From NCBI RefSeq assembly GCF_001429185.1, contig NZ_LMIW01000008.1, forward strand, positions 372,001 through 436,000: 64,000 nucleotides of DNA, in the 5' to 3' direction. Both the position numbers and the translations under genes were made by a program. Numbering within the stretch: the first letter of the stretch is position 1; every line of letters starts with the position of its first letter. Of this stretch, positions 36,587 to 42,189 are shown piece after piece. The notes under the pieces are model-generated. The model did not search any database. It saw only the letters and a program-made list of their open reading frames with translations, and was not told the DNA's origin. This DNA is from Terrabacter sp. Root85. GTDB taxonomy: Bacteria; Actinomycetota; Actinomycetes; Actinomycetales; Dermatophilaceae.

Positions 36587-37609
36587 ATGTCCAGTCGCCC
36601 GTCCAGCCGCATCGTCGGGGTCAGCGCGCACGTTGCCGAGCACGTCCTCACCATCGAGGAGGTCGAGGCCCGCGTCGTCGGCGCGAGCGACGGGTTCGTG
36701 CCTCCGACCGGGGTCCTCGGACGCCTCACCGGAGTGCGGCGCATCCACCACGCCGGTCCCGACACGCAGGCGTCCGACCTGGCCGCACAGGCGGCGCGCA
36801 CGTCGCTGGCGTCGCTGGGCCTCGCCGTCGCCGACGTCGACCTCCTCGTCTTCGCCTCGGCGTCGCAGGACCTCGTCGAGCCCGCCACCGCGCACATCGT
36901 GGCCGACCTGCTCGGTGCCCGGTGCCCCGTCATGGACGTCAAGAACGCGTGCAACTCCTGGCTGAACGGCGTCCAGGTCGCCGAGGCCCTCATCGCCATG
37001 GGGCAGTACGAACGCGTCCTCGTCGTCACCGGTGAGATGCCGTCGCGCGCCGCGCGCTGGAGCGTGCGCGACGCCCGGCAGTTCGTCGAGTCGGTGCCCG
37101 GCTACACGATGAGTGACGCGGGGGCCGCAGCGCTCGTCGAGCGAGCCTCTCCCGGCGCGCGCGGAGAGATCCTGCACCGCTGGTTCACTGCAGAGTCGCG
37201 GCACTGGTCCGTGGGCCAACTCCCCGCCGGCGGCACCCGCCATCCCCGCGACGTCGACAAGGGCTACTTCGTCATGGACGGCGCGCGCCTGCGCCAGGCC
37301 TTCGACAGCGTCGACGTGGAGGAGATCCACCGAGCCCTCAAGGCCGACGGTCTCGGGGCCGAGGACTTCGCGGCGGTCGCCGTCCACCAGGTCGCGATGC
37401 CCTACCTCGACGTCTTCGCCGCACGCCTCGGCCTGCGTCGCGACCTCGTCGTCGAGACGCTGCCCGACCACGGCAACTGCGCCTCCGCCACCCTGCCCCT
37501 CCAGTGGCAGCAGATCGAGCGGCTCGATCTGGCCGGCCGGGGTGAGCCCGTCCTGCTCGTGGGCCTGGCCGGAGGCATCAGCGTGGGCACGATGGCGGTG
37601 CGGTGGTGA
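36587..37609 (+). CDS. OleA-like thiolase-superfamily beta-ketoacyl synthase (KAS III fold)
   Basis: The 340-residue enzyme resembles OleA, which joins two acyl-CoA chains head to head into a beta-keto acid, more than housekeeping FabH. It shows TQASDLAAQAAR near residue 60 and SQDLVEPATAHIVADLLG, with Glu98 at the place of the OleA general base. DVKNACNSWLNG carries catalytic Cys122, VAVHQVAMPY His267 and PDHGNCASAT Asn297. These spacings match the OleA triad. It is the first gene of a five-gene operon of overlapping genes. A GGGAGGG Shine-Dalgarno precedes the ATG. A FabH-like role with an unusual primer cannot be excluded. Confidence 0.78.
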   Translation: MSSRPSSRIVGVSAHVAEHVLTIEEVEARVVGASDGFVPPTGVLGRLTGVRRIHHAGPDTQASDLAAQAARTSLASLGLAVADVDLLVFASASQDLVEPATAHIVADLLGARCPVMDVKNACNSWLNGVQVAEALIAMGQYERVLVVTGEMPSRAARWSVRDARQFVESVPGYTMSDAGAAALVERASPGARGEILHRWFTAESRHWSVGQLPAGGTRHPRDVDKGYFVMDGARLRQAFDSVDVEEIHRALKADGLGAEDFAAVAVHQVAMPYLDVFAARLGLRRDLVVETLPDHGNCASATLPLQWQQIERLDLAGRGEPVLLVGLAGGISVGTMAVRW

Positions 37610-38397
37610 ACGCTCCGGCGCCCCTGGGTGCCGGGGGAGTCCGCCTCTGGGTCATCGTGCCGGCCTTCAACGAGCAGGAGGGCATCGGGCGGACCATCGC
37701 CGCGATCGCAGCGCAGCGTGACCGCGACTTCACGCTCGTCGTCGTCGACAACGCCAGCACGGACGGGACCGCGGACGAGGTCGAAAGGGTCTGTGCGGCC
37801 TACGATCTCGGAGTCTCGATCGTCACCGAGCCGCGCAAGGGCACGGGCGCTGCCTCCGACACGGGTGTACGCCACGCCATCGCGCACGGAGCAACGCACG
37901 TGCTGCGCACCGACGCCGACACGTTGCCGGTCCGCGAGTGGACCGCCGTCGGTCGGCGTGCCTTCGCCGGCGGCGCCGACCTCGTGACCGGGCCGATGCG
38001 GGCACGCACCGACGAGGTGCGCCTGCAGCCGTGGGAGCGGGTCGTGCTGCCCGGGGTCATCGGCCTGTGCCAGACGTTCGGCCGCTTCCGTCCGAGCAAC
38101 AGGTCTCCCGAGCTGCACGGTCCCTACCGGATGAGCCCCGGTTGCAACATCGGCATCAGCGCCGCGGCCTACGAGGCGAGCGGTGGCTTCCCGCGCACCG
38201 CCATCGAGGAGGTCCACGAGGACCGGGAGCTCGTCAACCGGGTGCGCCGGGTCAGCTCCCGGATCGAGTACCACCGTGGCCTCGTCGTGCACGCGTCGGT
38301 GCGACGCCTCCGGGCCTACGGCCTGCGCAACACCCTCCGGTGGTACCTCGACCACGGCCACCGCCCCGACGTCGTCGACGTCCGAGGCGTCGCGTGA
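37606..38397 (+). CDS. GT2-family glycosyltransferase
   Basis: The 263-residue enzyme has the GT-A fold: nucleotide-binding VIVPAFNEQEGIGRTI and VVDNASTDGT, the metal-binding DxD as LRTDADTLP, and the catalytic-base region HEDREL. It has no membrane helices, so it is likely cytosolic or peripheral. The start is GTG 37606 (overlap GTGA) or GTG 37603. Being second in the operon between the OleA-like synthase and the P450 suggests it glycosylates the lipid product, possibly on a hydroxyl added by the P450. Donor sugar is unknown. Confidence 0.8.
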   Translation: MNAPAPLGAGGVRLWVIVPAFNEQEGIGRTIAAIAAQRDRDFTLVVVDNASTDGTADEVERVCAAYDLGVSIVTEPRKGTGAASDTGVRHAIAHGATHVLRTDADTLPVREWTAVGRRAFAGGADLVTGPMRARTDEVRLQPWERVVLPGVIGLCQTFGRFRPSNRSPELHGPYRMSPGCNIGISAAAYEASGGFPRTAIEEVHEDRELVNRVRRVSSRIEYHRGLVVHASVRRLRAYGLRNTLRWYLDHGHRPDVVDVRGVA

Positions 38398-39659
38398 GGG
38401 CGCTCGCGCGCACCGACCCGGGGAGCCGCTGGGAGTCACGGCTGATCCGCTCGGCACACCCCGTCGTGGCCCGCGTCGTCGACGCGGCCGTGTCGCGACG
38501 CGGAGTCGTACGCGTGCCCGGCGTCGGCGTGCTCGTGGCAGACCCGCGGTCGGCACGACGGGTGCTCACCGACACCGAGGCCTTCGCCAAGAACGGCCCG
38601 GGGTCGTCCGGAGCACTCTGGACCCCGGTGCTCGGCGACCGGGTGCTGCTCAACATGGAGGGCGACGACCACCGCGGCCTGAGGCACACCCTCGCCGACC
38701 TCTTCTCGCCCCGGGTCGTGCGCGAGGTCTGCGACGCGGCGGCCCGTCCCATCGTCGCGGGGGCCGCGGCGCGGCTGCGGGAGGGGGAGGAGGTCGACGT
38801 CGTCCGGCTCGCCCGTGAGGTGTCCGCTGCCGTGATCGGGGCGGTCGTCGGGCTCGACCCCGAGACCCCGCCGTCGGTGCTCCTCGAGGCCAGCGACGCC
38901 ATCGAGTCGATGGTCACGTGGCGCACCCGCACCTTCGACGACGCTGCGGCACAGCGGGCGCGCGCGGCGCTCGCCGTGGTGCAGGACGCCGCCGAGTCCG
39001 CCCATGCTGCGGGCTCGTCGGACACGGTCATGGGTCGGCTGGCGCAGCAGGACGCATCGCTCGACGACGCGCGGTCCCTGGCCGCCGCGCTCTTCCTCAC
39101 CGGCACGGGCACGGTCAGCAGTGCGTTGCCGCGGATCGTCGGCCAGCTGGCCGATGCGGGCCTGCTCGAGCCGCACGCGGCGAAGGGGTGCCGGCTCGAC
39201 GACGTGGTCGCCGAGGGTCTGCGCATGACGACGCCGAGCCTCGCGACCGTGCGACGGGTCGTTCGCCCGACCGAGATCGACGGGGTCCGGCTTCGCGCCG
39301 ACGAGCGCGTCGTCGTGCTCCTGTGGTGGGCGACGCGACGCGACGGGGGCTTCGAGCCGGGACGACCCGCCACGGGCGACCTGCGCCACCTGTGGTTCGG
39401 AGCCGGCTCGCACTTCTGCCTCGGCGCCCCCCTCGCGCTCGCCGAGCTGCAGGCCATGACCGGCATGCTCCTGGAGGTCGCGGGAGAGCGCGGGCTCGTC
39501 GTGACGTCGCGTCGGGCCGCCCGACGCGTTCTCGTGCCGAGATACGCCGAGCTCACGGTCCGCTGCCCGGACGCCAACCGTGCGAGGGCGAGGGCGAGGG
39601 CGAGGGCGAGCTCGGGGGCGGGCGCGACCGGCGCCAGGAGCGCGGGCCGAGCGGCATGA
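38394..39659 (+). CDS. cytochrome P450
   Basis: The 421-residue P450 has heme ligand Cys342 in FGAGSHFCLGAPLA and the K-helix ExxR in EGLRMTTPS. The I-helix region reads LTGTGTVSSAL around residues 235-245. There the normal acidic residue of the (A/G)Gx(D/E)T motif is Gly239, while Thr240 is kept, so proton delivery may be unusual. The C-terminus carries an Arg-Ala repeat encoded by a GCGAGG hexanucleotide array. The GTG start overlaps the glycosyltransferase stop by 4 bp. No dedicated ferredoxin or reductase gene adjoins it. Confidence 0.85.
   Translation: MRALARTDPGSRWESRLIRSAHPVVARVVDAAVSRRGVVRVPGVGVLVADPRSARRVLTDTEAFAKNGPGSSGALWTPVLGDRVLLNMEGDDHRGLRHTLADLFSPRVVREVCDAAARPIVAGAAARLREGEEVDVVRLAREVSAAVIGAVVGLDPETPPSVLLEASDAIESMVTWRTRTFDDAAAQRARAALAVVQDAAESAHAAGSSDTVMGRLAQQDASLDDARSLAAALFLTGTGTVSSALPRIVGQLADAGLLEPHAAKGCRLDDVVAEGLRMTTPSLATVRRVVRPTEIDGVRLRADERVVVLLWWATRRDGGFEPGRPATGDLRHLWFGAGSHFCLGAPLALAELQAMTGMLLEVAGERGLVVTSRRAARRVLVPRYAELTVRCPDANRARARARARASSGAGATGARSAGRAA
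39582..39611 (+). repeat. GCGAGG hexanucleotide tandem repeat in the P450 3' end
   Basis: Four perfect GCGAGG copies (39582-39605) plus a degenerate fifth encode an (Arg-Ala) run near the P450 C-terminus. Copy-number change would add or remove residues in frame. Confidence 0.75.
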
Positions 39660-41227
39660 CCGGCGGGGCCGACATCGTCACGGCGCTCCTCGCCCGGGCG
39701 GCCACCGAGCCGCAACGGGTGGCGATCCGGGACCACCGGGCCCGGTCGGTCGCCTACGGCGAGCTCGGCAGCGACGTCCGTGCCGTGGCGGCCCACCTCA
39801 CCGCCCACGGGGTCGTCCCGGGTGACGGGGTGCTGCTCGCCGTCCGGCCCTCGCCGCGCGCCGTGGCGGCTGCGCTCGGTGTCGTGCTGGCCGGGGGTGT
39901 CGTCGTCGTGGCCGACCCCGGCGCGGGGCAGGCGCTGCTCGACGTGCGGCGTCGCGTCGTGCCCGTGCACGCGGCGGTCGCGGACACCCTCGTGCACGCC
40001 GCCGGTCACCGGCCGCTCTCGTCACTGCTCGCGCGGCTGCCGGCCACCTCGGGCCTGCAGCTGCCCGACCTGTCGGCGGCCGGGCTCGTCCACGTCGTCA
40101 CCGGTCCACGGCTCCCCGGGGTGCCGCGCACCGCGACCCGGTGGGAACGCCTGCCGGCGCCGCTGTCGGCGCCCGTCGTCGGGGATCCCTCGCGCGAGGC
40201 ACTCGTCGTCTTCACGTCGGGCTCGACCGCCGCGCCCCGGGCGGTCGTGCACACCCTCGCGTCGCTCTCGGCGGGGGTCGGCGCCGCCGTCTCGGCACTC
40301 GGCCTCGACACCGACGACACCATGCACACCGACCAGCTGATGATCGGCCTGCCGACCCTCGTGGCCGGTGCGGTCTGGTCGCTGCCGCCGGTCACGGCGT
40401 CACCGGACGCGTGGCTGCGTCAGGCGGCACGCGAGTCAGCGACCCACGCGTACGCCGTCCCGGCCAAGGTGCTCGCAGCGGCCACCCGAGGACTGCCACC
40501 GACCGTGCGGCACGTCGCCATGGGCGGGGCTCCCGTGCTGCCGGCCACGGTGCGACGTCTCGAGGTGCTGGCCCCCGGCGTGGATGTGCGCGCCGTCTAC
40601 GGACTCACCGAAGCGCTGCCGGTCGCCGTCGCCACCGGGGCCGACGTGCTGGCGTCACCCTCCGGGCGCACGAGCCTCGGGCGGCCACTACCCGGCGTCG
40701 CGGTGCGCATCGACGAGCCGGGGCCCGACGGGGTGGGCGAGGTCGTCGTGCGGGCGGCGCAGGCGCGGCACCGTCTCGCGGGGGAGCCGCCGAGTCAGGA
40801 GGTGCGCACCGGCGACCTCGGCGAGCTGGCCGCCGACGGCACGCTCCTGCTCGCCGGTCGAGCCAAGAACATGATCATCCGCGGACAGGCCAACATCTAC
40901 CCGGAGCTCGTCGAGCCGCTCCTCCTCGACCGGCTCGGCGACGTCGTCCGGGACTGCGCCCTCGTCGGGCTGCCCGACGCGGTCACGGGCGACGAGCACG
41001 TCATCCTCGCCGTCGTCCCGGTCGGCGAACTCGGCAGGGTCCGCCCGGCGACGGCGTCACGGGTGAGCCGTCTCGTCCACGGCGCCTGGGCGGCGCTCGC
41101 CGACGAGACCTGGCGACCCGACGACGTCGTCCTCGTCGACGCGCTGCCGCGGCGGGGCCGCTCCGGCGTGGTCGACCTCGATGCGCTGCGGGCCGTCGTC
41201 TCGCACGACCGGTCGGGGGCGGTCTGA
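39656..41227 (+). CDS. OleC-like acyl-AMP ligase (ANL superfamily)
   Basis: The 523-residue protein has an adenylate-forming fold: A3 as FTSGSTAAPRAVVHT (residues about 186-200, with Arg in place of the usual Lys), VYGLTEALPV, and RTGDLGELAADGTLLLAGRAKNMIIRGQANIYP with the core hinge. The expected A10 Lys near the C-terminus is replaced (PRRGRSGVVDLDAL has Val there). OleC uses ATP to convert a beta-hydroxy acid to a cis-beta-lactone. Context favours this or simple fatty acyl-AMP formation. ATGA overlap with the P450 and TGATG overlap with the next gene show tight coupling. Confidence 0.72.
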   Translation: MTGGADIVTALLARAATEPQRVAIRDHRARSVAYGELGSDVRAVAAHLTAHGVVPGDGVLLAVRPSPRAVAAALGVVLAGGVVVVADPGAGQALLDVRRRVVPVHAAVADTLVHAAGHRPLSSLLARLPATSGLQLPDLSAAGLVHVVTGPRLPGVPRTATRWERLPAPLSAPVVGDPSREALVVFTSGSTAAPRAVVHTLASLSAGVGAAVSALGLDTDDTMHTDQLMIGLPTLVAGAVWSLPPVTASPDAWLRQAARESATHAYAVPAKVLAAATRGLPPTVRHVAMGGAPVLPATVRRLEVLAPGVDVRAVYGLTEALPVAVATGADVLASPSGRTSLGRPLPGVAVRIDEPGPDGVGEVVVRAAQARHRLAGEPPSQEVRTGDLGELAADGTLLLAGRAKNMIIRGQANIYPELVEPLLLDRLGDVVRDCALVGLPDAVTGDEHVILAVVPVGELGRVRPATASRVSRLVHGAWAALADETWRPDDVVLVDALPRRGRSGVVDLDALRAVVSHDRSGAV

Positions 41228-42189
41228 TGAGGGTCGCCGTGACCGGAGCCAGCGGCTTCGTCGGCGCCGCCGTCGTCGACCGGCTGCTCGAGCGTGGCCA
41301 CGAGGTGCTCGCCCTGTCCCGGCGACCGGTTCGGGCGCGCCCCGGGCTCGTGCACCGTCCGTGGGACCTCACGACCGGTGTCCTGCCCGACCCGTCGCCC
41401 GTCGACGTCGTCGTCCATGCCGCCGCGCGCGTCGACGAGTGGGCACCCCGGGCCGTCCACGACGCCGTCACCGTGGGCGGCACGCGTGCGGTCCTCGCGA
41501 CGTGGCCGCGGGCCCGGGTCGTCCTCGTCTCGTCGTGCAGCGTCTACCCCCTTCGGCCCCCCGCCGGCTCTGGGCACGTCTTCACCGAGGACGTGCCGGT
41601 GACGACGCACCACCTGTCCTCCTACTCGCGCGCCAAGGCCGACCAGGAGCGGCTCGTCCTCGGGCGCGCGGGCAGCGTCGTGCTGCGACCCCACGCCGTC
41701 CACGGTCCCGGCGACCCGACCCTGCTCCCGCGGCTCGAGCGCGCCCGACGCCGCGGCCGGCTGCTGTGCCCCGGCAGCGCTGACACGCTCGTCCACCTCA
41801 CGGACGTGCGTCTGGTGGCAGATGCCGCCGTCGCCGCCAGCGAATCCGCTTGCGGCACAGCGGTGCTCAACGTCGCCGATGATCACGCTCTGCCGCTCGC
41901 CGTGGTCGCGGCCGGTGTCGCCAAGGCCAACGGATGGCCCGAGCGCCCACTTCTCACCGGAGCGGGCGTCGCCTGGGCCGCGGCGCTGGCCCTGGAGGCC
42001 ACCGCCCGGCTGACCCGGGCGTCCACGCCTCCGCTGCTCACGGCATACGCCGTCTCGCACCTCGCGGTCACCCGCGTCTTCGACACGACCAGGCTGCGCG
42101 AGCAGCTCGGCGTCCTGCCCGCTGCGACAGACCTGTCCCGATGGCGCCACGAGCGCACGGGCCACGGGGACGGCGACTCATACGACTGA
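41227..42189 (+). CDS. OleD-like NAD(P)-dependent epimerase/dehydrogenase (extended SDR)
   Basis: The 320-residue protein has the nucleotide-binding GASGFVGAAVVDRLLERG (GxxGxxG at residues 7-13), the catalytic Ser region VLVSSCSVYPL and the YxxxK pair Tyr133/Lys137 in YSRAK. The C-terminal half resembles 3-beta-hydroxysteroid dehydrogenase-like SDRs, the group that includes OleD, which reduces the beta-keto acid made by OleA. A more hydrophobic segment (VAWAAALALEATARL) near residue 260 may associate with membranes. It is the last gene of the operon. Confidence 0.75.
   Translation: MRVAVTGASGFVGAAVVDRLLERGHEVLALSRRPVRARPGLVHRPWDLTTGVLPDPSPVDVVVHAAARVDEWAPRAVHDAVTVGGTRAVLATWPRARVVLVSSCSVYPLRPPAGSGHVFTEDVPVTTHHLSSYSRAKADQERLVLGRAGSVVLRPHAVHGPGDPTLLPRLERARRRGRLLCPGSADTLVHLTDVRLVADAAVAASESACGTAVLNVADDHALPLAVVAAGVAKANGWPERPLLTGAGVAWAAALALEATARLTRASTPPLLTAYAVSHLAVTRVFDTTRLREQLGVLPAATDLSRWRHERTGHGDGDSYD

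Follow-up and report, generated by a model that had tools for sequence, protein, structure and literature searches.

An operon at positions 36587 to 42189 of a 64,000-nucleotide stretch of the Terrabacter sp. Root85 genome (contig NZ_LMIW01000008.1; this whole stretch is called the window) encodes an OleA-type synthase, a family 2 glycosyltransferase (GT2), a cytochrome P450 (P450), an ANL ligase sister to OleC and an OleD-like short-chain dehydrogenase/reductase (SDR); no OleB was found in the genome. With about even confidence, the locus is read here as an OleA-initiated glycolipid operon of the published OleB-less kind that combines OleA, glycosyltransferase, P450, OleC and OleD, in a derived Terrabacter/Humibacillus variant with a non-canonical ligase and P450. 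The gene combination and its product prediction are already in print, and the residue losses in the window's clade appear to be new. The five plus-strand open reading frames are intact, with successive overlaps of 7, 4, 4 and 1 bp, as the original prediction, made from the sequence alone, had described (five same-strand genes overlapping by 1 to 7 bp).

The alignment of 75 ligase rows showed lysine at the A10 position in 67, valine, alanine or glycine in seven, and a gap caused by a contig end in one. The seven are the window together with two Humibacillus, three Terrabacter and one Terracoccus records, and they comprise the whole of one clade (7/7). The aspartate of the GRxKD motif, presumably a hinge residue, is asparagine or serine in the same seven and aspartate in 64 of the 68 others (asparagine in two, glutamate in one, gap in one). 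The C-terminal domain contains no lysine in any of the seven, and one to nine in each of the 67 others. Lysine was also found at A10 in all 18 further ligases from the regions sorted into types below (17 when L232, a repeat of L074, is left out). In a solved ANL enzyme the aligned residue is the lysine of the NGKVDR motif, and the A10 lysine is described as the key catalytic residue of adenylation (PMC8388817). The TE of motif A5, the Asp of A7 and the Arg of A8 are kept in the clade's ligase. Because the A10 lysine is missing, beta-lactone closure in this clade appears doubtful on sequence grounds.

A similar loss was observed in the P450. The acid of the I-helix is glutamate in 71 of 78 rows and glycine in the same seven, so that the window has Gly239-Thr240 in place of Glu-Thr and lacks the acid-alcohol pair of a monooxygenase P450. 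The heme Cys, the ExxR motif and the Thr are kept in all seven. Since the I-helix acid is gone, ordinary hydroxylation would likewise be doubtful in this clade. P450 length differs among the seven close relatives; close to its 3' end, the window's P450 gene has a tandem repeat of the hexamer GCGAGG (39582 to 39610) that codes for an Ala-Arg tail.

Change across the whole clade was measured as the loss of conserved columns, defined as columns with at least 97% conservation in the rest of the family; L088 was excluded throughout, and L086 and L087 were used for their own test only. In the clade as a whole, the ligase has lost 21 of 99 such columns and the P450 19 of 90; for the synthase, GT2 and SDR the losses are 4 of 95, 12 of 91 and 7 of 55, respectively. 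In every gene, eleven further groupings, two of which lie within others, have lost 0 to 5% of columns, in tests that include the clade's rows in the rest of the family, so that fewer columns count as conserved. Two very divergent loci from metagenome-assembled genomes (MAGs) have lost 11 to 34% of columns, yet both the A10 lysine and the P450 acid are kept there. All 35 reading frames of the seven loci are open, with similar lengths. The median ratio of nonsynonymous to synonymous substitution rates (dN/dS) over the 21 pairs of the clade is 0.156 for the synthase, 0.206 for the GT2, 0.253 for the P450, 0.282 for the ligase and 0.274 for the SDR; six other groups gave 0.105 to 0.194, 0.072 to 0.176, 0.121 to 0.221, 0.137 to 0.239 and 0.137 to 0.281, respectively. 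The open frames and these ratios indicate that constraint on the clade's operon is somewhat relaxed, yet clearly present as judged from the coding sequences.

The original prediction had assigned the first gene to OleA, and the active site and phylogeny support this. Glu98, Cys122, His267 and Asn297 align in register with Xanthomonas OleA (PDB 3fk5), and all four are invariant in 80/80 operon rows and in 9/9 OleA proteins of OleBC clusters. Glu98 is followed by Pro99, likewise in 80/80 operon rows, and a Glu followed by Pro (Glu117) is given as the mark of OleA (PMC7064751). Among 30 sampled KASIII-type proteins, the glutamate occurs in four (L183, L185, L187 and L195), all of which score or group as OleA; L187 is the identical protein to one of the nine OleA references. 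In the tree, operon synthases and OleA separate from KASIII at a support of 99/98, with one long-branch KASIII row (L194) on the OleA side, and with FabH as outgroup they separate at 100/100. A FabH identity of the synthase was thus ruled out by the tree and Glu98. The scores against NCBIfam hidden Markov models (HMMs) are 154.5 bits for FabH PRK09352, 135.9 for PRK09258 and 134.6 for FabH TIGR00747, every one under its cut-off, which is 285 bits for PRK09258, the model that we take to be closest to OleA. The synthase is far from every curated HMM, and the term OleA-type therefore rests on the active site and the tree.

Synthase-bearing regions of the class were sorted into three types. The synthase profile matches 33 of 394 genomes of the class at E ≤ 1e-80, and the sorting rests on 20 of those 33 regions, two of which showed the synthase only. 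Type I, the gene order of the window, is full in five of the 20 regions and partial in two, one of the latter being the repeat L232. Type II has a distant P450 after the ligase and comprises L239, L240, L242, L243, L244, L248 and L249: five loci have the order synthase-GT2-ligase-P450-SDR, one has no SDR match and one has the GT2 moved. Type III consists of a synthase, an OleC-type ligase, an SDR and OleB, and was found in four of the 20 regions (L241, L245, L247 and L250). These four appear as mosaic clusters, with OleB present, the ligase grouping with OleC and the synthases nesting among those of type I (97/97 in a 24-row set, 94/97 at the inner fork).

In a ligase tree with type II and III rows, the type I and II ligases form one clade (100/99) that is sister to OleC including type III (100/99), with a small outgroup of ten other ANL ligases of the window's own genome that lacks McbA. 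In a smaller sampling the link to OleC was weak (81/88). The ligase had been called OleC type; the tree upholds this only as a sister relationship. Among family models, the acyl-CoA ligase model PRK06187 scores 129.9 bits, above the OleC model at 72.4 (cut-off 900). OleBC fusions of the same order also fall under the OleC cut-off (0/119 genomes over). The ligase has a GRxKDMIIRG-type hinge motif, compared with GRxxHVI in OleC. A structure model with a mean predicted local distance difference test (pLDDT) of 86 confirmed the ANL fold and nothing beyond it. The closest solved relative of the window ligase by sequence and fold is the amide bond synthetase McbA (PDB 6sq8, 6h1b), at about 26 to 28% identity over the fold match; McbA is not top elsewhere, as FadD5 scores higher for a Lys-bearing relative and others come first with the family profile. 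The substrates of McbA are aryl acids (PMC6282839).

The SDR catalytic residues are present in 72/72 rows. Among NCBIfam models OleD scores best, with 95 bits, far under its cut-off of 580, and the tree does not join the SDR to OleD. The proposed OleD assignment is therefore tentative. The GT2 structure model (mean pLDDT 85.6) matches many GT-A enzymes at a template modelling (TM) score of about 0.6, and this fold comparison names neither a sugar nor an acceptor.

For the OleB search, nine OleBC fusions from the host's order supplied the profile; all nine regions also gave same-strand matches to OleA and an OleD-like SDR. No match was found in the window's own genome at E ≤ 1e-20, in agreement with the predicted lack of OleB. 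The genome-wide search suggested together with that prediction covered 57 synthase-bearing genomes, of which ten have OleB at E ≤ 1e-130, each in a frame of 905 to 1354 aa; one other gave an intermediate match (1.7e-47) and eight gave weak ones (6e-22 to 3e-29). Inside 79 surveyed loci, the sole hit is one of 48 bits and 22% identity in L087. A separate OleB in tight co-occurrence with the operon was thus ruled out (10/57 genomes, 11 with the intermediate hit). Rather than a concealed partner of the operon, OleB looks like the gene of a separate olefin pathway that some hosts carry.

The OleABCD olefin pathway (Xanthomonas; actinobacterial oleA-oleBC-oleD) shares with the window the active site and family of the synthase, a ligase to which the window's is sister through OleC, and the SDR catalytic residues. 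The window synthase is about 24 to 28% identical to OleA of the nine OleBC clusters; the olefin pathway has OleB, whereas the window lacks it and adds GT2 and P450. The beta-lactone clusters for lipstatin and nocardiolactone, both named in PMC7064751, differ from the olefin pathway. They encode proteins of OleA, OleC and OleD types without OleB. Compared by description, the window is alike in these three types and in the lack of OleB, and differs in that its operon includes GT2 and P450, has one OleA-type gene, and has no nonribosomal peptide synthetase or formyltransferase among the five.

The gene set had been thought an undescribed combination, which was wrong. OleA, a glycosyltransferase, OleC, P450 and OleD were described together in Actinoplanes atraurantiacus, whose genome has no candidate for OleB (Smith et al. 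2020, PMC7064751); there, hydroxylation, glycosylation and lactone closure are proposed to yield a hydroxylated, glycosylated beta-lactone, the same product. The window, with all five kinds together and no OleB, falls within the cluster definition of that paper. Compared by description, the two share the five protein kinds, the lack of OleB and the proposed chemistry; the Actinoplanes P450 is listed after OleC whereas that of the window precedes the ligase, and the missing A10 lysine is counted as a further difference from a cluster known here by description. The type II gene order equals the order in which PMC7064751 lists the Actinoplanes proteins. With p-nitrophenyl hexanoate the Actinoplanes OleA showed activity, but it gave no Claisen product. 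A non-exhaustive literature search, with other hits judged by title or abstract, found no second paper describing the five-gene combination; neither 'glycosyl' nor 'P450' occurs in the main text of PMC7158056. The same search found no report of a product of this cluster kind, and no account in print of the A10 lysine and P450 acid losses in the Terrabacter/Terracoccus/Humibacillus clade. The full set is carried by 70 of 79 actinobacterial loci examined, yet no product report was found. The window's clade offers a natural experiment in which two enzymes lack key residues and the operon is intact, and a lipid comparison between Lys-bearing and Lys-less species would bear on whether the product depends on the ligase step, and on a possible non-catalytic role of OleC-type proteins.

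Every reaction step and the product are proposed from the sequences. The synthase would join two acyl-CoAs head to head into a beta-keto acid, as its active site and phylogeny suggest, the SDR would reduce this to a beta-hydroxy acid, and the GT2 may transfer a sugar onto a hydroxyl or carboxyl group. In most relatives the Lys-bearing OleC-sister ligase could adenylate the acid and close the beta-lactone, and the P450 could hydroxylate the chain. In the Terrabacter clade, an altered or non-catalytic role of ligase and P450, such as partnering the SDR, seems more likely, because the catalytic residues are gone and both proteins are kept intact. A glycosylated beta-hydroxy acid or ketone-type lipid would then be a likelier product than a hydroxylated beta-lactone, and the published product prediction probably does not apply to this clade. 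The original prediction of a hydroxylated, glycosylated beta-lactone or beta-hydroxy lipid is right in outline, with the lactone and hydroxyl steps probably wrong here given the loss of the A10 lysine and the P450 acid. More tentatively, a beta-lactone-type operon may have changed course on the stem of the clade, where ligase and P450 would have dropped adenylation and ordinary oxygen activation and been kept as scaffold, carrier or for new chemistry, giving a different, undescribed glycolipid.

Several observations weigh against this derived variant. None of the seven type II P450s has the acid (asparagine in four, threonine in two, alanine in one), so its loss is not unique to the window's clade and need not be fatal; an acid-less P450 may be normal for this cluster kind. 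Catalysis without the A10 lysine may proceed slowly or with a substitute group. The clade's GT2 and SDR have lost 13% of columns each, compared with 0 to 5% elsewhere, and part of the change is therefore operon-wide. For P450, ligase and GT2, the clade's dN/dS exceeds that of all six other groups, and relaxed selection also fits. At the entry step, purified Actinoplanes OleA condensed none of the tested acyl-CoAs from C8 to C16, in work where little protein was recoverable (PMC7064751). A less likely reading is that ligase and P450 work with substituted residues and yield the published hydroxylated, glycosylated long-chain beta-lactone. The gene set equal to that of the Actinoplanes cluster (PMC7064751), the ligase clade sister to OleC, and the retained A5, A7 and A8 residues and P450 heme Cys, ExxR and Thr all speak for it; the A10 lysine is nevertheless gone and the C-terminal domain lysine-free in 7/7, the P450 acid is gone in the same seven, and each of the two proteins has lost about a fifth of its family-conserved columns, which leaves this product doubtful here.

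Decay of the operon in the Terrabacter clade, with ligase and P450 dead and genes being lost, would also account for missing catalytic residues in two genes and for dN/dS values of 0.25 to 0.28 in P450, ligase and SDR. The ligase was found at E ≤ 1e-80 in five of nine genomes of the host's genus (own genome counted), and one of the four without a match is just 74% complete. Decay is nonetheless improbable: 35/35 frames are open in seven genomes, dN/dS is well below 1 at a mean dS of 0.5 to 0.7, the losses are common to all seven and have been maintained since, and the synthase, the GT2 and the SDR retain intact sites. Also improbable is a reading in which the ligases of this family have at no time been beta-lactone synthetases and have another ANL activity, such as that of an acyl-CoA, ester or amide ligase. 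The acyl-CoA ligase model PRK06187 scoring above OleC, the hinge motif and the fold match to McbA point that way; wider sampling, within the limits of the small McbA-free outgroup, groups the ligase with OleC and apart from the ten own-genome ANL ligases, and the adjacent synthase and SDR would supply a substrate of the OleC kind. The derived variant with altered ligase and P450 is thus the reading retained for the window, whose genes are listed below.

Table 1. Genes of the operon and state of their diagnostic residues (window positions).
Product	Protein	Position	Strand	Length (aa)	Domains and residues
OleA-type thiolase-fold synthase	P0001	36587..37609	+	340	Pfam KASIII N/C domains; Glu98/Cys122/His267/Asn297 intact
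GT2 glycosyltransferase	P0002	37603..38397	+	264	Pfam Glycos_transf_2; GT-A fold; Asp-x-Asp motif intact
Cytochrome P450	P0003	38394..39659	+	421	Pfam p450; Cys342, ExxR, Thr240 kept; I-helix Glu replaced by Gly239
OleC-sister ANL ligase	P0004	39656..41227	+	523	Pfam AMP-binding; A10 Lys replaced by Val505; GRxKD Asp replaced by Asn405; C-terminal domain without Lys
OleD-like NAD-dependent SDR	P0005	41227..42189	+	320	Pfam Epimerase/3Beta_HSD; Ser/Tyr133/Lys137 and glycine-rich motif intact

The neighbourhood survey proposed with the original prediction was run on named genomes scanned with the synthase alone; 80 of 111 relatives were kept, giving 79 named loci. All five genes recur in identical order and strand in 70 of these 79 loci under 25 genus labels (MAG bins counted as labels), and the arrangement is therefore not due to chance. 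Contig ends break off the set in L016, L044, L065 and L073, and the gene set of L056 is rearranged or incomplete. In L052, L054 and L074, no SDR match was found past the ligase in this survey; downstream of the ligase, L052 has an amylase gene and L074 a gene for a thiamine pyrophosphate (TPP) enzyme. The remaining locus, L088 (6359-13166) of Psychromicrobium silvestre, has the family synthase, P450 and SDR with an ATP-grasp/GNAT protein and an unassigned 447-aa frame in place of GT2 and ligase; GT2 and ligase matches were not found there in the survey, and its gene set is perhaps a different route for using the acid. In Antribacter gilvus (L060:11154-14294), inserted genes for an FtsX/MacB-type permease and an ABC ATPase separate the synthase from the GT2, a hint of product export.

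The synthase is present in 7 of 149 genomes of the host's family at E ≤ 1e-30 (own genome counted), and the nearest named synthases are from Terracoccus sp. 273MFTsu3.1 (96%), Terrabacter sp. Root181 (93%) and Terrabacter tumescens (91%). Flanking ABC-type genes recur in some locus groups and not family-wide, as do flanking genes that we take to be ilvD- and ilvB-like. The window operon is neighboured by TauE and ferric-reductase genes.

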